From Alicyclobacillus tolerans (GTDB lineage: Bacteria > Bacillota > Bacilli > Alicyclobacillales > Alicyclobacillaceae), in contig NZ_JXBW01000003.1 in NCBI RefSeq assembly GCF_001447355.1, positions 186,001 to 250,000 on the forward strand: a stretch of DNA of 64,000 nt, given 5' to 3'. Each line of letters begins with the position of its first letter. Within the stretch, counting starts at the first letter, position 1. Under the pieces are notes generated by a model. It worked only from the letters and a program-made list of their open reading frames with translations, made no database searches and had not been told where the DNA came from. The position numbers and the translations under genes were made by a program. This document shows positions 40,547 to 50,948 of the stretch, piece after piece.

Positions 40547-41105
40547 GTAAGTGAAATAATGCGCATTGCAGATATGCACATGCGATTCCTGCCGTGGATC
40601 CACCAACTGCCCCGACGACAACATCACTGATATGGTGCAATCCGCAATAAACTCGGGCGAAAGCCAACCAAATTGCCAAACCGAGCAATAGTGGAAAATA
40701 GGGACCAAGGTGATACGCGCCAATGGCAAGTGCGAAACCTCCGGCCGCATGATTGCTAGGAAACGAATCACCCGGTTCATGCCATAACAATGGCTGCCAT
40801 GGTTCCTTGTCGAAAGGTCGTGGGCGACTAACAAGTCGACTCACTGGCTCATGCAAGGCTCGCACCGTGACGGCAGCTACAATCGCACTAGCGACACTCA
40901 ATACAGCGGTGATTCGCAGACCAGGAAAAGCGAAACCCGTGGAAGCAACGACAAGAATCATAAGAATAATTAACGGTGTGTATTTGGCACTTGCCATCAT
41001 CGTGGAGTCAAACGCATGAGAACGGCCCCATTTGGCTTCGATCCACACCATGACCTTCGTGTCAATTTGCTCAATGTACCCCCATAAGGTCATGACTCGT
41101 CCCAT
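40542..41105 (-). CDS. PAP2-family phosphatase (undecaprenyl-diphosphatase-like)
   Basis: A 187-residue membrane phosphatase with about six hydrophobic segments. The three PAP2 motifs are SRPRPF (about residue 93), FPSNHAAG (about residue 114, PSxH) and RVYCGLHHISDVVVG (about residue 151, SR-x5-H-x3-D type). BcrC-like undecaprenyl diphosphatase is the best guess. GGAGAG precedes ATG 41105. The start lies within the 3' end of the phospholipase-D-like gene (16-bp overlap). The stop is inside a 17-bp tandem repeat. Confidence 0.85.
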   Translation of the reverse strand: MGRVMTLWGYIEQIDTKVMVWIEAKWGRSHAFDSTMMASAKYTPLIILMILVVASTGFAFPGLRITAVLSVASAIVAAVTVRALHEPVSRLVSRPRPFDKEPWQPLLWHEPGDSFPSNHAAGGFALAIGAYHLGPYFPLLLGLAIWLAFARVYCGLHHISDVVVGAVGGSTAGIACAYLQCALFHLP

Positions 41106-42217
41106 TGTCTCTCCTTCTCTGCCATCGGATAGTCAGTTCCTCGAGCAAGCTGGACATGCAGATCCTCTGTAAGCGCGTGTGAAAACGTTGGCACGTTCGT
41201 CAACCAAAGATCTGCTTCATGGTTGTACGTGTAAGCCTGATGACTAAAGTTGGCACTCCCAATCATAAAAATTCGCCCACTGTCGATGTCGAGGATCTTC
41301 GCGTGCATCAATTCTCCCTGGTAGGGACGGTAATATCGTATCAAAGCGCCGGCGCTCTGCAACTCCGATACGGCTTTGCGGTTATAAGTTTGGGAAGGAT
41401 CGACAAGCACCGACACCTGTACTCCGCGCGCAAGGGCACTATGTAAAGCGGAAATAACGTCGGTATCCGATAAATCGAATGCTTCGAGATCAATTTCGCT
41501 ATGCGCTTGCCCAATAGCATCGACCACCGCCTCGCCGATACGGCTATCGACGAGTAGGGGCTGTGGAAAACTCGGCGTCTCTACGACCTGACCGCCTGCA
41601 CGTGCGAAGTCCCACGCGAAAAGCTCCTCAAATTTTTGACTCTGGCCTGGAAGGTATACGGATGCGTCATTGTTATTCCAACTGTCCTTTCCGTAGTTCA
41701 TACCACCGATCAGCACATCTTGATCCGCAATTAACATTTTGACGTGATCAATCCCCTGCTTGATCTGGATCTGCTCGACCGGAATGCCGGCCTTTTGAAG
41801 CGTGGGTACGGCTATAGTGGTTGAATGCGATTCGGTGCTGTCGACGACAGCACGGACGTCTACACCTCGGCGATGCGCATCTGCGAGAGCTTGTAGAATA
41901 TCTGGATCTGATAACTCGTAGATGTCGAGATGAACCTCACGTCGACTGGCCCGAATCATCTGCAGAGCTTTCTGCTTGATGTCCGGCCCCCACAGTAGTT
42001 CCATTCCGTTGCGAGCGTATGCAGGCTTCGGAAGCGTTTCTTGTAAGATTTGGTTGTTTCCGAACGGTAGGATGCCACAGCCACTTAAGCCGAGGCTGAT
42101 GAAAGTCAAACCTAGTGCCAACCAATGTCGTTTTGTCGGGATACGTCGAGTATGCCAAGTTTCTGAGCGACATCCTTCACTAAGTTCGCAATATGCGGGC
42201 TGTAGAAATTCATTCAT
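41090..42217 (-). CDS. phospholipase D-like lipoprotein
   Basis: A 375-residue PLD-superfamily protein with two HKD motifs, HVKMLIAD (about residue 180) and HAKILDID (about residue 325), each followed by a Gly-rich turn (GGMNYG, GSANFS). A hydrophobic segment with lipobox LSGC at Cys47 follows an unusually long hydrophilic N-terminus of about 30 residues, so lipid anchoring is likely but not certain. Cardiolipin synthase-like or phosphodiesterase activity is possible. ATG 42217 with GGAGGG at 7 nt; a hairpin covers part of that site. Confidence 0.82.
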   Translation of the reverse strand: MNEFLQPAYCELSEGCRSETWHTRRIPTKRHWLALGLTFISLGLSGCGILPFGNNQILQETLPKPAYARNGMELLWGPDIKQKALQMIRASRREVHLDIYELSDPDILQALADAHRRGVDVRAVVDSTESHSTTIAVPTLQKAGIPVEQIQIKQGIDHVKMLIADQDVLIGGMNYGKDSWNNNDASVYLPGQSQKFEELFAWDFARAGGQVVETPSFPQPLLVDSRIGEAVVDAIGQAHSEIDLEAFDLSDTDVISALHSALARGVQVSVLVDPSQTYNRKAVSELQSAGALIRYYRPYQGELMHAKILDIDSGRIFMIGSANFSHQAYTYNHEADLWLTNVPTFSHALTEDLHVQLARGTDYPMAEKERQWDES

Positions 42218-42227
42218 GGACAATCCC

Positions 42228-42246
42228 TCCATCCAAAACGGATGGA
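42228..42246 (-). promoter_or_regulatory. hairpin overlapping the ribosome site of the PLD-like gene
   Basis: TCCATCC (42228-42234) pairs with GGATGGA (42240-42246), 5-nt loop. On the transcript its 3' arm shares three bases with the GGAGGG ribosome site. Confidence 0.4.
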
Positions 42247-42373
42247 TGATGAATTCCCCTGAAAAAGGCCAACACCTGTTTTCGATAGGATATACATACA
42301 AAATAAGAAATCCACTATCATGTAGTGAATATTACGCCAAATGGACTCTCGCAGGACCTGGCCCTTGACTCCA

Positions 42374-45300
42374 TTACGAGAGTCCCCAGATGTGGTCAAC
42401 TAAAAGTTGTCCTCGTGCTCCCCCTCGCCGTTGCATAACACCTGAAGCGCCAAGCAACCGCCCATATGGCGTGAATACTACCGCACCCTCCGTACGATAG
42501 ACAGATTCAAACATTGTCGCATCCAACATACCGGTTTCGTCTTCCAACGTAAAAAAGACAACCGTGCGCCCGCTTTTGGTCGGCGGGCGATGAGGGCGGA
42601 TCGCCAAACCAGCGACTGTCACACGCTCACCATCTGGCATGGAAAGTGCTTCTGCTATGGTGTTGTAATGAAGCTGCTGCAAATCACAGCGATATAAATC
42701 GAGCCAATGCCCGCTCATGCCAACGCCGACAAGTGCGTATTCATCGGCAAGGCGTTGCGCGAGCGAAGCTGGCCGCATAGCCGTACGTGGCTGTTTCGCT
42801 GGATGCGCGGACGAATGGATCAAGGGTAGCGATCCCGACTGACGTTGAGCAAACCATTGTGGCAGCTGCCAAATCAATTCGTTTCGATCCGCCTCCTCGA
42901 CGCGATCCAACGCACCGACGCGCACCAGATGTTCAATATGCAATCGATCCGCCTGCGGCACACGGAGAATCAAATCGACGGCGGATCGAAAAGGTCCCCC
43001 GCGGGTTCGCTCCTCGTTGACAGCGGTTGCCACTGTTTCAGGAAATCTTGAGATTAAGCGCATCCCGAGCCGAATTTCGGACTCTGAGGGCACCGTGCAA
43101 TCCCACGTACTTTCATTGATGTCGATGGGCAAAATGCGGATACCACGCCGCTTCGCTTCAGCACAGATGACGTGCACTGGATAATACCCCATGGGCAATT
43201 GGTTTAAGATGGATGCATAAAACAGTGCCGGATAATGCTGGACAAGATACGCTGTCTTGTACGCAGTGGTCGCAAATGCAGCCGCATGCGCTTCACAAAA
43301 ACCATAACTAGCGTAACTTTGGATGTAAGAGAAAATCGTGGCGGCCACCGATTCCGCAATACCATTTTGCAGCGCCTTTTCCATAAACAATTCGCCGATT
43401 TTTTTCATCTCAGTATAATTGCGCGCATGACTCATAACACGCCGTAACTCATCTGCTTCCCCTGGCGTAAATCCGGCAATTGCGGTGGCAATCTCAATCA
43501 CCTGCTCTTGAAACAGCACGACGCCGTACGTCTTGCCCAAAATGGGCTCCAGTTTTGGATGAAGATAAGTCACGGGTTCACGTCCCTGGCGTCGTGCAAT
43601 GAACGGATCGACCATATTGCCGAGAATGGGGCCGGGACGAATCAACGCGACGCTCGCCACGATGTCCTCGAGCCCCGTTGCACCTAAGCGGGCCTGTAGC
43701 GCGCGCTGTGCCGGACTTTCGAGTTGGAACACACCAATGGTATCCCCGCGTTGAATCATTGAAAAGGTGGCTTCATCTTCGAGTGGAATGGCGTCATAAT
43801 CGATCCGCCCGAATTTAGAACTCTCGCGAATGGCCCCTTCTATAGCGGACATGGTGCGCAGCGATAGCAAATCCAGTTTCACAAGACCTACATCTTCCAA
43901 CATCCGCTTATCGTATGGTGTAATCCAATGGCCTGAAGCCGAGGGTTGTAAACTCGTTACTTCGAATAAAGGACTGCTACTGATGGCAATTCCACCACTG
44001 TGCATGCCAAAATGGCGAGGAAATCCGGCAATGTGACGGGCAATCGCAAACAACCAGGAGAGCCTCTCACGATATTCTTGAAACATCCGTAGCTCCGGGA
44101 CGCGCCCCAATGCGTCTTCTAATTGATCGGCATGTGTCGACCAAGGAACGCGCTTGGCCAATGCGTCAAGCAGATCCTCTGGCAACGCGAGTGCAGCCCC
44201 AATTTCCCGCACTGCCGACCTCCCACGAAACGTCTGATACGTTGCAACGCGAGCCACTCGCTCCCGCCCATACTTGTGGTATACATAGTCGATTACCTCA
44301 TCGCGCCGATCGCTGGCAAAGTCGATATCGATATCTGGGCGCTCCGCCCGCTCAAGCGACATAAATCGTTCGAACAACAACCCCCTGCCCACCGCGTCAA
44401 CATCTGTAATATACAAGCAATACGCGACGGCAGAGTCGGCCGCGGAACCGCGTCCAGCACAGCGAATCCCACGGCTTCTCGCGAAGCGAACAATATCCCA
44501 GACAACAAGAAAGTAATCGACATAACCCAGTTCGCGAATGATCTCTAACTCATGCTGCAATCGCGCCGTCGTGGCACCATCGAGACATCCATAACGTTCT
44601 CTCGCCCCCGCAAATACGAGTTGTTCTAAGAATGGATACCCGCCACGCCCATCTTCCGTTCTATATGTTGGAAAAAGCGTTTTGTCTATGGGAAAAACAG
44701 CCGTGCAGCGATCCGCAATTTCTATCGTCCGTGCAATCGCCTCTGGAAACTCGGCAAATCGCAAGATGGCTTCGTCGACGTCATGCAACCATCCCATTCG
44801 GTTGAGGGGGCGCCCTGGATGCGGTGTATAAACATCACAGCCGAGTGCCATGCAACACAGCACATCGTAAACAGGGAATAATTGTTTATTAGCAGCATGA
44901 ACATCACTTGTAGCCACCAACGGCACTCCTGTACACCTCGATAACTCGGAAAGTAGCCGCATGCGCGATGCATAACCGGGATAGCCGTCAGCAACAAGCT
45001 CCAAATACAACCGATCTCTGAATATCTCGCGATAGCGCTCGACCCAATGGCGCGCCCGCGCATATTCCTGTTTGGACAAGGCTTGTTGTAATTGTCCATG
45101 GCGGCAACCGGATAGCACAATCAACCCTTCGGATAATCGAAACAAATCCGCCTCTGCCAACCGCGGTTGCGTACGACCGCCTTCTTGAGCATGCATGATG
45201 GTAAGCAATTCACATAAATGGCGAAAACCTTGCCTAGTTTCCACAAGAACGGTGAGATGTGATCCATCTTCCATGGTCAACTCGGCTCCAGAGATCGGTT

Positions 45301-45478
45301 TGATGCCATAAATACCCGCCCACCTATGAAACTCCGGCAAACCGGCGATAGTATTGTGATCTGTGAGCGCGAGAGCTGGCATGCGGTACAGTGCAGCCTG
45401 TGCCACAAGTGATTCAATTGAAGAGGCGCCACTTAGAAATGAATACGGCGAATGGCAGTGCAGATGAATAAACACCAC
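42374..45478 (-). CDS. dnaE2: error-prone DNA polymerase III alpha subunit (DnaE2/ImuC)
   Basis: A 1034-residue C-family polymerase. The PHP domain is at the N-terminus (HLHCHSPYSF, ALTDHN); the palm has CAGRGSAADSAVAYCLYITDVD and catalytic PDIDIDF (about residue 390); the FHMHSGG-type fingers and a C-terminal OB domain (VTVAGLAIRPHRPP) follow. This size and architecture is DnaE2/ImuC, the translesion polymerase of the SOS mutasome, not the replicative DnaE or PolC. It lies 15 nt after the DUF6504-like gene and follows imuB. GTG start at 45478 behind AAGGTAGGT. Confidence 0.9.
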   Translation of the reverse strand: MVFIHLHCHSPYSFLSGASSIESLVAQAALYRMPALALTDHNTIAGLPEFHRWAGIYGIKPISGAELTMEDGSHLTVLVETRQGFRHLCELLTIMHAQEGGRTQPRLAEADLFRLSEGLIVLSGCRHGQLQQALSKQEYARARHWVERYREIFRDRLYLELVADGYPGYASRMRLLSELSRCTGVPLVATSDVHAANKQLFPVYDVLCCMALGCDVYTPHPGRPLNRMGWLHDVDEAILRFAEFPEAIARTIEIADRCTAVFPIDKTLFPTYRTEDGRGGYPFLEQLVFAGARERYGCLDGATTARLQHELEIIRELGYVDYFLVVWDIVRFARSRGIRCAGRGSAADSAVAYCLYITDVDAVGRGLLFERFMSLERAERPDIDIDFASDRRDEVIDYVYHKYGRERVARVATYQTFRGRSAVREIGAALALPEDLLDALAKRVPWSTHADQLEDALGRVPELRMFQEYRERLSWLFAIARHIAGFPRHFGMHSGGIAISSSPLFEVTSLQPSASGHWITPYDKRMLEDVGLVKLDLLSLRTMSAIEGAIRESSKFGRIDYDAIPLEDEATFSMIQRGDTIGVFQLESPAQRALQARLGATGLEDIVASVALIRPGPILGNMVDPFIARRQGREPVTYLHPKLEPILGKTYGVVLFQEQVIEIATAIAGFTPGEADELRRVMSHARNYTEMKKIGELFMEKALQNGIAESVAATIFSYIQSYASYGFCEAHAAAFATTAYKTAYLVQHYPALFYASILNQLPMGYYPVHVICAEAKRRGIRILPIDINESTWDCTVPSESEIRLGMRLISRFPETVATAVNEERTRGGPFRSAVDLILRVPQADRLHIEHLVRVGALDRVEEADRNELIWQLPQWFAQRQSGSLPLIHSSAHPAKQPRTAMRPASLAQRLADEYALVGVGMSGHWLDLYRCDLQQLHYNTIAEALSMPDGERVTVAGLAIRPHRPPTKSGRTVVFFTLEDETGMLDATMFESVYRTEGAVVFTPYGRLLGASGVMQRRGGARGQLLVDHIWGLS

Positions 45479-45493
45479 AGGTACCTACCTTCT

Positions 45494-45736
45494 TTAATCC
45501 CACACTTTGTAGATGAACCACTGTCCCGCATCTTCTTCTAAATCCATTAAGCCTCCATCCTCCGTCCAAACGCGCATCATTTTTCGCTCACCCTCACCCA
45601 GCCACCAACACCCCATCTCAAACCATCGATCGATCACGTCGACAATCACGCGCACAGCTTCTTGATCCTGAAACGCAAGTGGCTCCCCGTCGCACCAGCG
45701 AGAGACTGCGATGGGTCTGCGGACAATTCGACTCAC
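45494..45736 (-). CDS. DUF6504-like small protein of the mutasome cassette
   Basis: An 80-residue protein. The start RRPIAVSRWCDGEPLAF, a central Trp-rich RWFEMGCWWLGEGERK and the end DLEEDAGQWFIYKVWD resemble DUF6504, a small domain often seen beside imuB/dnaE2 in Actinobacteria and Deinococcus-Thermus. Its function is unknown. GTG start overlaps the imuB stop by 4 bp, and dnaE2 follows in 15 nt, so it is translated between the two mutasome subunits. The family name is from memory of the pattern and should be checked by profile search. Confidence 0.65.
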   Translation of the reverse strand: MSRIVRRPIAVSRWCDGEPLAFQDQEAVRVIVDVIDRWFEMGCWWLGEGERKMMRVWTEDGGLMDLEEDAGQWFIYKVWD

Positions 45737-46956
45737 CCAGGCATTCCCCGCAATACAGCAGCCAAACGAAGCTCGCGAAAGTCTGGAACCAAGCCAATTT
45801 GAATTTTCGGGAATTTGTGGACCAATTGCTCTCGCACGGATTGCAACTTGGTTTTTGCAACGACGCGCACAGGTTCGTCTCCCTCACCAAACAGCAAAAA
45901 TCCTGACTGTACCGTAGGCAACAACTGTACATCGACGGCTTCGAGTTCCATCTCCTCAAGCCAACACCCTAAGGCATGATCACGCCAGCCCTGTAACTGG
46001 ACCACGACGGTATGCGCCTGATATACAGGTCGTTTGAACGTTTTAATCCACTCCCCACTCCCTGCATTCGTCTGCCACCGAAGCGCAATCCGCCTGATGC
46101 CTGAATCAGAACGAACGACCCTTTGACAAAGCTGTGCAGCAAGCAATTCTAAAACGCTGTCCCATCCGCTTTCGGGCATCGGTTCGCCAAGTGGAGAACG
46201 CCATATCGCCAAGTGCTCACCAGGTGGTGCATCGGCAACAATCAGGCCATAACGGATCCTTTTGCCGATCCGCCGCCAAGATAATGCCTCTGTGCCAAAG
46301 CGAGAAACGAGCATTTCATCCGTAATCTCATCCAGATCTTGCAAACGATGCACACCAAGATGGATAAGTTCGTTGCGGCAGGGCTCTGGAATTGCCGAGA
46401 CAACGGCAATCGGCAAACCGCGCGTCCAGTCGAAGATAGGCTCACTGCCCTCTAACATGCGTGCAATCGCTGGTGAAATCAAAAGCTGTTGACGACCAAC
46501 TCGGTAGTACAAAGCGTTGGGTACACGTTCAATTCGGCTCCAGCACACCAAAGCCTCTGCGGCAAACGGATGCTCTGCCAAGCCAACTCGCACTCGCTGC
46601 TCACAGCTCAACACGTCGTCAAACCGGCGGCAGATGGAGCGAACTTCGGTAAGCGGTGGATGCCCGGACGGCAATTGGACAAAAAATGCGAATTGCTGAG
46701 GGAGTGTTCTGACAAATGGCGAAGCGTCCCAAAGCACTTGGTAAACGGATGTCAGCGCTCGTGATTCGCCGACTGACCCAACCACATGTACGCCTGGTAT
46801 CAGTGCCTTCGCCTGCGCCACAGAACATCCGATTTGCACGCCTGCTTTTTTAGCTGAAATCGATACATCCGCAACACGATTTTGGGTAACCGTCACAAAC
46901 GGCCTATCCAAATCGACCGAAAGCCCTTGTCCTTCACCGTAGAGCGTAAATTTCAC
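45733..46956 (-). CDS. imuB: ImuB, inactive Y-family polymerase-like mutasome subunit
   Basis: A 407-residue ImuB-type protein. The N-terminal half has the Y-family palm/finger remnants (VADVSISAKKAGVQIGCSVAQAKALIPGVHVV) but no catalytic acidic residues, and the usual DxTG block is absent. A helix-hairpin-helix region (LGVHRLQDLDEITDEMLVSRFG, about residue 205) and a little-finger-like domain follow. ImuB bridges the beta clamp and DnaE2. Start GTG 46956; the SOS promoter and LexA box are just upstream. No imuA gene adjoins. Confidence 0.8.
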   Translation of the reverse strand: MKFTLYGEGQGLSVDLDRPFVTVTQNRVADVSISAKKAGVQIGCSVAQAKALIPGVHVVGSVGESRALTSVYQVLWDASPFVRTLPQQFAFFVQLPSGHPPLTEVRSICRRFDDVLSCEQRVRVGLAEHPFAAEALVCWSRIERVPNALYYRVGRQQLLISPAIARMLEGSEPIFDWTRGLPIAVVSAIPEPCRNELIHLGVHRLQDLDEITDEMLVSRFGTEALSWRRIGKRIRYGLIVADAPPGEHLAIWRSPLGEPMPESGWDSVLELLAAQLCQRVVRSDSGIRRIALRWQTNAGSGEWIKTFKRPVYQAHTVVVQLQGWRDHALGCWLEEMELEAVDVQLLPTVQSGFLLFGEGDEPVRVVAKTKLQSVREQLVHKFPKIQIGLVPDFRELRLAAVLRGMPG

Positions 46957-46966
46957 GGCCTCACCA

Positions 46967-46984
46967 CCAGAACATATGTTCTGG
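46967..46984. promoter_or_regulatory. LexA (DinR) SOS box
   Basis: CCAGAACATATGTTCTGG is an 18-bp perfect palindrome containing GAACATATGTTC, the Gram-positive LexA consensus (CGAACATATGTTCG type). It lies between the -10 and the imuB start codon. Confidence 0.93.
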
Positions 46985-46988
46985 TTAG

Positions 46989-47017
46989 ATTATATGCAAA
47001 GGCAACAAGATATACAA
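46989..47017 (-). promoter_or_regulatory. SOS promoter of imuB-dnaE2
   Basis: On the minus strand TTGTAT (47017-47012), exactly 17 nt, TATAAT (46994-46989). The LexA box begins 4 nt downstream, covering the start of transcription. Confidence 0.85.
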
Positions 47018-47129
47018 ACACACGTTCGCTCCAAATGAAGGAATATCAGTTTGCAACAAAAATGTCTTTATGATCGTCTAATCGTTTGAGATGTCCGCCT
47101 GAAACGGCGGCCAAGGAGGTTGGCTGAAC

Positions 47130-47330
47130 ATGGGGATCGGTTTCGTCATGACATTCGTTTTATTCGCATTTCTAATAGGGTTGTTGTCGCGCCAAGTCGT
47201 CACCACAAACAGCGAACAGACGCAAAGTGACGAGGTACAACATGCGCCTGAATCGCCCAAGGAAATATGGGCGAATGCTGAAGACACAACCGAACAGTCG
47301 ATGCCTTCCAATCAGGCGCAGGCACAGTAA
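47130..47330 (+). CDS. small single-pass membrane protein
   Basis: A 66-residue protein of unknown function. Residues 3-20 are a transmembrane helix (VMTFVLFAFLIGLL), followed by an acidic, Glu/Gln/Ser-rich cytosolic or external tail. AAGGAGG lies 10 nt before ATG 47130, which supports real translation. It is divergent from imuB; the LexA box is 150 bp away, so SOS control of this gene is possible but not shown. Confidence 0.55.
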   Translation: MGIGFVMTFVLFAFLIGLLSRQVVTTNSEQTQSDEVQHAPESPKEIWANAEDTTEQSMPSNQAQAQ

Positions 47331-47352: not shown

Positions 47353-48060
47353 CTACTCCATCCTGTCACCAGTTCGAAAATGCGGCACGAGTCGCCCCAC
47401 CGGATTTGTGCCGGCTCCCTTCAACCAAATGGCAACATTCCACGCACTCACCGCGTCCGTCACTTGTTCAATTTGATCCGTAGTTTGATTCGTAGCCCCC
47501 GCCTCGCGCGAATCTGCTTTCGTACTCCGAACCCAATGGGCCGTCCAGCCATGAGCGGCGTCGAGCAACGGCTCTTCGTCCAACCCAACAAATCGAAATA
47601 CCCGTAAGGGATGCTCGTCTGCCTCCCAAATGAGATGAAGCAAAGCTGTCAGGACATGTACACACAGCGGATCGGAATCATCACATGTGCACTTGGCACC
47701 CCACCGCAACTTATCCACAACGGAATCATCAGGCAGCACATCAAGTCGATTCGACTTGAGAAACGCCTCATATTCCGGATCCCACTCCCCGGCAAAGTGG
47801 GCAGCCATCCAGTCAGGCCGCATGGCCAGCCATTTCGCAACAGCCTCAATATGTTCCTCATAATGAGCCAAAAGCGGCAGTGCCACTTGGCAACTGCGCC
47901 GTGGGCCACTGGCGCGCACCTGAGCCCAAATTTCGCCGCGCACCAACTCGACGTGGACGACAGCACCGGATTTAGCCTCCTGCCTTGCCTTGCGCACGCG
48001 CGCCTTGTCCACCGCATTCCACACTGGGCGCCAAAACGGCTCCAACACGCTTTTTTTCAC
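47353..48060 (-). CDS. SWIM zinc-finger protein
   Basis: A 235-residue protein whose centre carries a SWIM motif, CTCDDSDPLCVHVLTALLHL (CxCx(n)CxH, about residue 124). SWIM proteins in Bacilli are commonly encoded next to an SNF2 ATPase (YwqB-YwqA pair), as here. They are thought to help bind DNA or protein partners. It overlaps the helicase stop by 4 bp (ATGA), so translation is coupled. The C-terminal third is variable. Confidence 0.85.
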   Translation of the reverse strand: MKKSVLEPFWRPVWNAVDKARVRKARQEAKSGAVVHVELVRGEIWAQVRASGPRRSCQVALPLLAHYEEHIEAVAKWLAMRPDWMAAHFAGEWDPEYEAFLKSNRLDVLPDDSVVDKLRWGAKCTCDDSDPLCVHVLTALLHLIWEADEHPLRVFRFVGLDEEPLLDAAHGWTAHWVRSTKADSREAGATNQTTDQIEQVTDAVSAWNVAIWLKGAGTNPVGRLVPHFRTGDRME

Positions 48061-50948
48061 ACATCGTCCTCCTCAAAGACGGTCTGCGGTGTCAGCTCAA
48101 ACAACTCGCGCAACGAATCGTCGTCCAGTTCGGTCACCCACTCCTGCGATGACGAGACAATTGCTTCTGACAGCTCGCGTTTACTCAAAATCATCTGATC
48201 GATCCGCTCTTCCAACGTGCCTGCACAGATCATTTTGTGTACCTGAACGTCTTTGGTTTGGCCGATCCGATATGCCCTGTCAGTAGCCTGATCCTCAACT
48301 GCAGGATTCCACCAGCGATCGTAGTGAAATACGTGATTGGCCCGCGTCAAATTGAGACCAACGCCGCCGGCGCGCAACGATAGAACCAAAATCGGCGACG
48401 GATCGCGCCCATTTTGAAACGATTCGACGATTTCGCCACGGCTGCGGGCAGTTAACCCCCCATGCAAAAACTGCGGGCGCACGCCAAACTCCGCTTCCAT
48501 CGTGTCGCACAAAATCTCGCCCATATCGCGAAACTGCGTAAAGACCAAGGCACATTCGCCATCCTCGACGACAATCCGCAACAGATCCATAAGCTGTCGC
48601 AGTTTTCCGCTACGCCGCAGCGAAGGTGCACCACCGGAGATGAGACAGGGATGATCACATACCTGCTTCAACCGCACCAATGTCGAAAGGATCATACCGC
48701 GTCGCGACATGGCCTTAGCCCCCGCGCCGATCCCGGTGAATAGCTGATCGACAAACGCTTGATACATAGCCGCTTGCTCGGCCGTCAAGTACGCACGTTC
48801 GTCGACTTCCCATTTCTCGGGCAATTCGGTTTGAATATCTGGATCGGTCTTTCGCCGCCGCAACAAAACAGGGCGCAACAAAGCCTGCAGGCGTGCGATA
48901 TCGGACGCGCTGTCCTTGTCACCGGAAGCGAGATCGGCAAACGTTCGGCGGAACCAAGCCAAAGTTCCTAGGTAACCTGGATTTAAAAAATCCATCAAGG
49001 CCCACAGTTCTTCCAGCCGATTTTCCACTGGCGTACCTGTCAACGCAACTTTGTGCCGCCCTTTAAGCATTCGCAAGGCCTGCGCCTGCTTGGTACCCGC
49101 ATTTTTGATGTTCTGTGCCTCGTCGATTGCGATCACGTCAAACAGCCGAGTCAAAAATGAGTCAAGATCGCGCACCAAGGTCGCGTACGTCGTCATGACC
49201 ACATCGACCTTGCCGGCCGCTAAAGCCGCATCCAAATCGCGCAGTGCGCCATGATGCACATATACCCGTAAACCGGGTGTGAATCGCTCCAACTCGGCGC
49301 GCCAATTGGCCAGAAGCGAAGTAGGACACACTAACAAATGCACGCCTTGTGCCGCTTTTTCCTCCTTGAGCTTGAGTAGATATGCAAGCAGCTGTACCGT
49401 TTTACCCAATCCCATGTCATCCGCCAAGCAGGCACCACAGCCGATCTCGCGCAAATGCATCAACCAGGAAAACCCATGCGCCTGATAGTGACGCAATTGC
49501 CCACGCAGTCCATACGGCGGTTCGACCGCAGGGATGTGCAGGGCATGCGTAAACACGTCAACCACACGCTTGACCTCAGCTGCCTCTGTTGCGAATTCGA
49601 CATCAAGCACAAGATCCTGCGATTCCTGCGCAAGCGCAATCGTGCGCGACAAATCAAGGACGGTCGCCTTATGGTCCGACCGCAGACCGAGCTTCTCCAA
49701 TTCCCGCAAAATATCCGCAATTGGCACCAACCGCCACGATCCTTCGACGCGGATGAACGGCGTCTGTTCAGCGACCATCTGTGCAAAATCTTGCTGCGAC
49801 AACTCGCGATCCTGGACGACGATTGACCAATCAAAATCCACCAATTGCTGTGCATCGAGCCACTGCTGACCAGCTGATGCAACAGCTCGCTTGTCGCGTC
49901 CACCGCGCCCCTGCCGAACCAGGACACGTACGCGAATATCTCCCGCCTGTTCCACCTTTGGCGTCTCGACATAAAAACCTGCCGCCACAAGCGATGGGAT
50001 AGACTGAACAAGCAGTGGATAGACGTCATCGACAGGAATCTCGACATACGAGGGCGCCGGGCGCCCTAAAGCGTCTGCAATCTGCGGACAGTGACGCCCA
50101 GCCTCCCGCAGTTTTGGCAGAATCCACGCATCCGGAGCCACTAATACGTCGCCTTCAATCCGCCATCTGCGCGCCGTCTGTCGCCACCAATCTGACAGCG
50201 GTACAAGCTTCCCGGAAAATCGGTGGCGCACGCAAAACTCCAATACCCAATCGGCAATCGGGGCGTCAGGCGGCGGCGCTTGCAGCGCAAAGGCCACTTC
50301 ATAAAACGGCCTACCGCTGCGATCCGCCCATTCCATCGCCGCCCACCCCGACTGTGCAAGCCCGCCACGCACAGTCTTCGCAACAAGCCAACCGTCTGCG
50401 ACAAACGTCGATTCCTTCGCAATCAGCGCACGAAGCCAAGCCGCCATGACCTCTGACTCGCCTCGATACATCACTCGATAGGGGCGATCAGGCGCCGCCG
50501 CCGAATCCTCGACCCGCTCAAGGCGGGTACGGGCAATGGCATCCACAAGCTCGACAAACAGCCAATCGATCTCATCAATTTCGCTGAACATATTGCATAT
50601 CTTCGGCTCGCTCTCCGCCACCGACAAAAGGCGAAAGCGCGCCGCTAAGAGCGGCTCCAACGACCAAGCCGGTGCCCACTTGGCCACAAATGTTCCATCG
50701 CCTGCGGCCACCATCACATCGGCCGCGGCGAGCGCCCACTGGCGCAAAAGGCGCACATTTGCCGCCGGCCCGTTTTCGACAGGCACTGCAATCGCCAACA
50801 CGTCGCCCGAACCAACAATGTGTGAAGCCAACTCGCGTACAGCGATCAACCAACGGTCTGCGGGGCTCTCACCCGATGTGCCACCGGCAAGGGCAGCCTC
50901 TACCGCCGCCGGAAGCCCGAGTTTCGCATTGACGCCTTCACCCTGCAT
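48057..50948 (-). CDS. SNF2/RapA-family DEAD-box ATPase (YwqA-like)
   Basis: A 963-residue protein with a poorly conserved N-terminal half (about 450 residues) and a C-terminal Swi2/Snf2 motor. Motor motifs: LADDMGLGKTVQ (Walker A, near residue 505), IDEAQNIKN (motif II), LTGTPVENRLEELW, FLHGGLTARSR, LSLRAGGVGLNLTRANHVFHYDRWWNPAVEDQATDRAYRIGQTKDV (motifs V-VI). It translocates on double-stranded DNA without strand separation; its role is probably transcription or chromatin remodelling. Pairs with the SWIM gene by a 4-bp overlap. Confidence 0.92.
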   Translation of the reverse strand: MQGEGVNAKLGLPAAVEAALAGGTSGESPADRWLIAVRELASHIVGSGDVLAIAVPVENGPAANVRLLRQWALAAADVMVAAGDGTFVAKWAPAWSLEPLLAARFRLLSVAESEPKICNMFSEIDEIDWLFVELVDAIARTRLERVEDSAAAPDRPYRVMYRGESEVMAAWLRALIAKESTFVADGWLVAKTVRGGLAQSGWAAMEWADRSGRPFYEVAFALQAPPPDAPIADWVLEFCVRHRFSGKLVPLSDWWRQTARRWRIEGDVLVAPDAWILPKLREAGRHCPQIADALGRPAPSYVEIPVDDVYPLLVQSIPSLVAAGFYVETPKVEQAGDIRVRVLVRQGRGGRDKRAVASAGQQWLDAQQLVDFDWSIVVQDRELSQQDFAQMVAEQTPFIRVEGSWRLVPIADILRELEKLGLRSDHKATVLDLSRTIALAQESQDLVLDVEFATEAAEVKRVVDVFTHALHIPAVEPPYGLRGQLRHYQAHGFSWLMHLREIGCGACLADDMGLGKTVQLLAYLLKLKEEKAAQGVHLLVCPTSLLANWRAELERFTPGLRVYVHHGALRDLDAALAAGKVDVVMTTYATLVRDLDSFLTRLFDVIAIDEAQNIKNAGTKQAQALRMLKGRHKVALTGTPVENRLEELWALMDFLNPGYLGTLAWFRRTFADLASGDKDSASDIARLQALLRPVLLRRRKTDPDIQTELPEKWEVDERAYLTAEQAAMYQAFVDQLFTGIGAGAKAMSRRGMILSTLVRLKQVCDHPCLISGGAPSLRRSGKLRQLMDLLRIVVEDGECALVFTQFRDMGEILCDTMEAEFGVRPQFLHGGLTARSRGEIVESFQNGRDPSPILVLSLRAGGVGLNLTRANHVFHYDRWWNPAVEDQATDRAYRIGQTKDVQVHKMICAGTLEERIDQMILSKRELSEAIVSSSQEWVTELDDDSLRELFELTPQTVFEEDDV

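Follow-up and report, generated by a model that had tools for sequence, protein, structure and literature searches.

The window analysed is a stretch of 64,000 nucleotides from the genome of Alicyclobacillus tolerans (2.81 Mb, 55 contigs, 99.79% complete). It carries a three-gene cassette on the minus strand, spanning positions 42374-46956 and encoding, in this order, an inactive Y-family polymerase homologue (iPolY), an 80-residue protein (ImuB-C) and a DnaE2-type polymerase (Table 1). The first two ORFs overlap by 4 bp, and a gap of 15 nt separates ImuB-C from DnaE2. An earlier sequence-only reading of the locus had described the same ORFs, overlap and gap, which were reproduced from the ORF coordinates, and its gene identities (ImuB-like, DUF6504-like and DnaE2) were supported. 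The cassette is real and conserved.

Table 1. Genes, promoter elements and protein motifs of the cassette (window positions).
Feature	Position	Strand	Remarks
iPolY (inactive Y-family polymerase homologue, ImuB-like)	45733..46956	-	407 aa, GTG start at 46956
Standalone ImuB-C (DUF6504) protein	45494..45736	-	80 aa, predicted all-beta
DnaE2-type C-family DNA polymerase	42374..45478	-	1034 aa
Distal LexA-type operator CGAACGTGTGTTTG	47015..47028	-	overlaps -35 hexamer
-35 hexamer TTGTAT	47012..47017	-	sequence read
-10 hexamer TATAAT	46989..46994	-	spacer 17 nt
Proximal LexA-type operator CCAGAACATATGTTCTGG	46967..46984	-	perfect 18-bp palindrome, 4 nt past -10
QSGFLL, iPolY residues 350-355	45892..45909	-	Gln (residue 350) in 34/34 sequences
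RecA-NT-like motif and conserved FRELRL tail, iPolY residues 371-400	45757..45846	-	iPolY C-terminus

Immediately upstream of the cassette (47353-50948, minus strand) are genes for a SWIM zinc-finger protein and an SNF2 helicase; of the 34 cassette loci fetched, among them seven short ones, 26 and 25, respectively, had homologues. A 66-aa ORF that contains a single membrane stretch (47130-47330, plus strand) is transcribed away from the cassette; a Pfam scan of it gave no match, and phmmer detected relatives in 16 of the 34 loci.

A PLD-family gene (41090-42301, minus strand) is located downstream of dnaE2. Among the relatives (loci L105-L131), 27 loci have 1 kb or more of flank, and 24 of these have such a gene 3' of dnaE2 in the same orientation. 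It was missing in G037, G030 and G032, and in G035 a weak match was found only 1.4 kb away. The PLD-family protein has two HKD-type stretches and, in many relatives, a lipoprotein-like signal; the gene is also present in L179 and L180, two stretches from another family. An AT-rich block with an AAACAGG-like end recurs in many of the gaps between dnaE2 and the PLD-family gene and may be the latter's own promoter. A literature search found no paper joining phospholipase D, dnaE2 and imuB.

Promoter and LexA-type operators

The sequence-only reading had placed a TTGTAT-N17-TATAAT promoter upstream of iPolY, with a perfect 18-bp LexA palindrome 4 nt below it, and both were read in the sequence. 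In all 34 family genomes with the cassette, a perfect GAACNNNNGTTC precedes the start by 25-79 nt, compared with its presence in 419 of 6800 random 430-nt windows from the same loci, indicating that the proximal box is not due to chance. The distal operator is an additional site, absent from the earlier reading. A site of this type, GAACNNNNGTTT, was found 42-53 bp upstream of the proximal palindrome in 33 of the 34 cassettes examined, the one without it being that of G030. The TTG of the distal site forms the start of the -35 hexamer, and the -10 hexamer follows 16-18 nt on (TATAAT in 32 of the 33 two-operator cassettes, TATACT in one). The proximal GAAC starts 4-15 nt past the -10 hexamer. 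Among random positions, 535 of 10200 had a hexamer of 4/6 matches at the same spacings.

Upstream of the lexA gene of the same genome (G000:C55:9428-9619) lies CGAACAAACGTTTG, and CGAACAGGTGTTTG is located about 100 nt 5' of recA. Because both genes carry distal-type operators, this type can be taken as the SOS operator of the organism. The two operators at the promoter and the lexA gene in the genome support the LexA-type control suggested in the sequence-only reading. Two LexA dimers would then frame the polymerase site at the promoter. Such a conserved two-operator promoter predicts tight repression, followed by late, steep induction. Elsewhere in the genome, a perfect GAACATATGTTC was observed where a radical-SAM gene begins (L003 1465-2484, plus strand; G000:C12). 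The product of this gene matches spore photoproduct lyase faintly, and the gene is likely a further LexA target.

The three proteins and the search for ImuA

The best NCBIfam match of the 1034-aa DnaE2 was PRK05672, error-prone DNA polymerase, over the full length at 837 bits, below the cut-off of 939. In a quick tree with flagged long branches and no named DnaE2X reference, 26 DnaE2s of the family formed one clade (SH-aLRT 100), apart from nine plasmid DnaE2/DnaE rows. Frameshift artefacts were considered, and the tree used 26 of the 34 cassettes, leaving out G013, whose DnaE2 frame is interrupted, and seven loci with the dnaE2 start only. The genome encodes three C-family polymerases, and the other two (1007 aa and 1450 aa) are read from their length as DnaE3 and PolC. 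A footnote in PMC3919608 lists a PolC, DnaE3 and DnaE2 set and names Alicyclobacillus acidocaldarius. In four plasmid DnaE regions (Streptomyces twice, Nocardiopsis and Paenibacillus), none of the annotated neighbours was an imuA, imuB or Y-family gene. On a Thermomicrobium roseum plasmid (L041 2703-4974), DnaE2 is preceded by a Y-family homologue, which in turn overlaps a gene that matches RecA and is annotated as 'recombinase A'. This Y-family protein appears by eye to have its own C-terminal domain, for which DUF6504 was not listed.

The cassette is probably a DNA-damage-controlled, error-prone DNA repair unit. The DnaE2 systems of Mycobacterium and Caulobacter are tied to induced mutagenesis (PMC3919608, PMC6511836), which speaks against a complex that acts in damage tolerance but serves mainly accurate gap filling and survival. 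The latter reading draws on the dnaE2 of Pseudomonas, from which the error-prone role of DnaE2 may not be general (PMC3919608), and it is unlikely, although it deserves more weight than an unrelated 80-aa subunit or a diverged ImuA (below).

iPolY is 97% identical to its counterpart in Alicyclobacillus hesperidum DSM 12489. Taken alone, it matched the Y-family model IMS weakly (17.3 bits, cut-off 23.2), and a sequence search of solved structures gave only a weak match to DNA polymerase IV (E 0.028). An AlphaFold2 model built from 26 relatives (mean pLDDT 83.1, pTM 0.64) had Sulfolobus Dbh (1k1q_B) as its best match, with a Z of 20.8, an rmsd of 9.5, 313 aligned residues and 14% identity. By this model, iPolY has the Y-family fold. 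A tblastn search of plasmids with iPolY gave no match.

The catalytic positions were scored in 34 relatives by alignment to the DinB of the same genome. The first catalytic Asp was never Asp (Glu in 15), the SIDE-motif Asp was Asp in 11 and Glu in 5, and the SIDE-motif Glu was retained in none. The catalytic triad was thus retained in 0 of 34, which bears out the earlier description of an ImuB-like protein without catalytic acids; intact Y-family catalytic residues, named there as evidence to the contrary, did not appear in the DinB alignment. A second Y-family gene, of UvrX/YqjW look, lies outside the window (G000:C23:323853-324242). It has an SVDE motif, an internal stop and shifted frames and is probably either a dead gene or a product of poor assembly.

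Two conserved elements follow the little-finger region of iPolY. QSGFLL, with its invariant Gln 350, is a candidate beta-clamp-binding motif. The tail has the pattern KFPxx...G...FRExR, in which G388, R394 and E395 are conserved in 34/34 sequences. Its best ungapped match in the RecA of the genome was LEMALKQIEKQFGK, exactly the RecA N-terminal segment, and only 8 of 20000 shuffled 45-residue RecA N-termini scored as high. A likeness by chance was considered, as equal scores were reached by 24 of 2000 whole-RecA shuffles and by 10 of 452 other ORFs (at least 200 aa). The likeness is modest, and the assignment of the tail as a RecA-NT motif, in agreement with PMC6511836, is plausible.

The 80-aa protein alone scored 16.4 bits with DUF6504 (E 0.011, cut-off 24.2) and was not listed in a genome-wide search with this model at E 0.001; 22 of 22 relatives matched at E <=0.1, the best at 1.4e-7. 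The same model matched the C-terminus of a Bosea plasmid ImuB (residues 429-503, 26.0 bits), which NCBI annotates as 'DUF6504 family protein', and that of a Paracoccus plasmid ImuB (residues 425-499, 21.5 bits, below the cut-off). Both of these ImuBs adjoin ImuA and DnaE2. On an Abditibacteriota plasmid, a 111-aa protein encoded between a Y-family homologue and DnaE2 scored 35.1 bits. Since one model matches both the relatives of the 80-aa protein and genuine ImuB C-termini, DUF6504 can be equated with ImuB-C.

The 80-aa protein is therefore most likely the C-terminal domain of ImuB encoded as a separate gene, and the iPolY and ImuB-C genes would together correspond to one split ImuB. The link runs via the DUF6504 model, as an HMM built from 29 standalone ImuB-C sequences did not match the Bosea or Paracoccus ImuB C-termini at E 1, and hhalign against Bosea ImuB was weak (probability 21, E 0.001). 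The sequence-only reading was right about the DUF6504 likeness, and its proposal of an accessory subunit gives way to ImuB-C. An unrelated subunit between the two genes, leaving the cassette without ImuB-C, would fit the score of the single protein below the cut-off and the weak direct profile match. It is very improbable given the DUF6504 matches in all relatives and in ImuB C-termini, a block that keeps the same order in both (xWW...R.W...W..Y..WD in the 80-aa family, GEWW...FRVED...W..HG..G in ImuB C-termini) and the definition of an 80-residue standalone ImuB-C in 2013 (PMC3765255).

The predicted structure of ImuB-C is all-beta with seven strands (mean pLDDT 94.2). Foldseek found no PDB match for this model at E <=0.001 (best 0.4), in agreement with PMC12926913, which describes ImuB-C as having no close relative in the PDB. 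The top VIA-align match was an affimer (Z 5.7) and was treated as uninformative. A tblastn search of phages with ImuB-C gave no match.

No imuA adjoining the cassette was found among the ORFs of the window, and a genome-wide search with the ImuA model NF033429 revealed none elsewhere, under a LexA box or otherwise. Both results agree with the sequence-only reading, for which an imuA elsewhere under its own LexA box would have been contrary evidence. PF00154 was rejected as a test for ImuA, since the Bosea ImuA has no PF00154 match, and NF033429 was used instead. In the source genome, NF033429 matched only RecA (46.0 bits), inside its PF00154 match. The ImuAs of Bosea and Paracoccus scored 57.3 and 60.0 bits, so that an ImuA of this type would be detected. 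PF00154 matched only RecA and a protein that is RadA-like by sequence. The genome thus appears to have one RecA and no detectable ImuA, judged against controls of the Bosea/Paracoccus type and not the actinobacterial type.

Across the 41 family genomes, NF033429 gave no match above its cut-off, which says little because 14 control genomes, including Caulobacter, did not reach it either. Weak second matches occurred in relatives (e.g., 22.2 bits in G022 and 21.6 bits in G035), and in the incomplete G039 the model barely reached RecA (E 0.164), so that the absence of ImuA there means little. A diverged ImuA elsewhere in the genome that completes a canonical mutasome could escape NF033429, as in the control genomes, or PF00154, as in Bosea, but is the least credible alternative, given that RecA was the sole NF033429 match, that PF00154 gave only RecA and the RadA-like protein, and that PMC6511836 reports genomes with such operons and without imuA.

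Distribution of the cassette and displaced ImuB-C copies

Of the 41 family genomes, 34 contain iPolY, and these are also the ones that contain ImuB-C. Three of the seven genomes without the cassette (G027, G028 and G038) are more than 90% complete. In 33 of the 34 loci, ImuB-C is the next gene after iPolY, and DnaE2 follows downstream on the same strand in all 34, seven of which show its beginning only. In G016, iPolY is followed directly by DnaE2 and ImuB-C is absent from the operon; the only full-length ImuB-C of this genome is on another contig, with the LexA-type box GAACGTTTGTTC 19 nt upstream of its start. In an order-wide survey of 59 genomes, full-length iPolY was detected in two genomes of the other family (G054 and G055) and a partial iPolY match in G050 and G052. 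ImuB-C and DnaE2 were present in each of these four stretches.

Of the 41 family genomes, 11 have ImuB-C copies that are not part of the iPolY operon, at 14 places in total (L091-L104). Several of these displaced copies lie behind LexA-type boxes of their own, and some are located beside SRAP and on mobile-looking DNA. In L093 and L094, ImuB-C overlaps or borders on an SRAP gene identified by its Pfam match; L095 has such a gene on the stretch that holds ImuB-C. Also present in L093 are an ATP-dependent ligase and an ORF that resembles peptidoglycan hydrolases and looks prophage-like.

A free ImuB-C might be an exchangeable subunit and not a fixed part of one complex, although we consider this rather doubtful. 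If so, any ImuB-C that happens to be expressed could switch, boost or hijack the DnaE2-iPolY of the host, an exchange that is impossible with a fused ImuB. Since most sequenced Alicyclobacillaceae species have the cassette, the genus would be well suited to testing RecA as a substitute for ImuA and ImuB-C in trans.

Assignment and comparison with known systems

Judged from gene content and promoter sequence, the cassette is very probably an ImuA-less mutasome operon under SOS control and belongs to the published DnaE2-iPolY-ImuB-C-RecA kind, with RecA presumably filling the role of ImuA. LexA would control the operon via two operators framing one sigma-70-like promoter. The operon would supply a non-catalytic Y-family protein, a separate ImuB-C and DnaE2, and RecA would take over the role that ImuA has in the canonical cassette. 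The G016 operon without ImuB-C, the modest RecA likeness of the tail and the dependence of the ImuB-C link on the DUF6504 model count against this assignment. A literature search found no experiment on the cassette for the genus Alicyclobacillus, and none of the papers found used the name DUF6504.

The cassette layout is already described in print. Solo ImuB-C with DnaE2 and inactive DinB was named by Aravind in 2013 (PMC3765255). Timinskas and Venclovas (2019; PMC6511836) described an operon of inactive PolY, ImuB-C and DnaE2 without imuA in Kyrpidia tusciae and proposed RecA in place of ImuA. PMC12926913 (2026) classed the module as DnaE2X-iPolY-ImuB-C-RecA, backed by AlphaFold models, and suggested that it is ancestral. 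The variant mutasome of the sequence-only reading thus holds as an ImuA-less layout and not as a new one, given these three papers. Relative to what they describe, the second operator at the promoter, the spread through the family, the ImuB-C of G016 away from its operon and the PLD-family neighbour appear to be additions.

As in the Kyrpidia tusciae module, a single operon combines an inactive Y-family homologue with a standalone ImuB-C and DnaE2, the iPolY tail plausibly carries a RecA-NT motif, no ImuA was found and the genome has PolC-type and DnaE3-type polymerases. The cassette differs in having no lexA gene beside the operon and apparently in the two-operator promoter, which the description of that module does not seem to mention. 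With the ImuA-ImuB-DnaE2 mutasome of Mycobacterium, Caulobacter and Pseudomonas it shares a dead Y-family protein, ImuB-C, DnaE2 and LexA control; here, ImuB is split in two genes (fused in Bosea and Paracoccus) and no ImuA was found. The ImuB-C operons of Aravind 2013 (with DinB, SRAP, Ku and ligase) contain the same small domain, and copies beside SRAP exist in the family too, whereas the window copy is in a DnaE2 operon and not with SRAP. The YqjW-YqjX-RecA system of Bacillus subtilis also pairs a Y-family protein, there with a RecA-NT motif, with a small subunit, but that protein is the active polymerase, its small partner is a YolD/YqjX family member and there is no DnaE2 (PMC6511836, PMC12926913).
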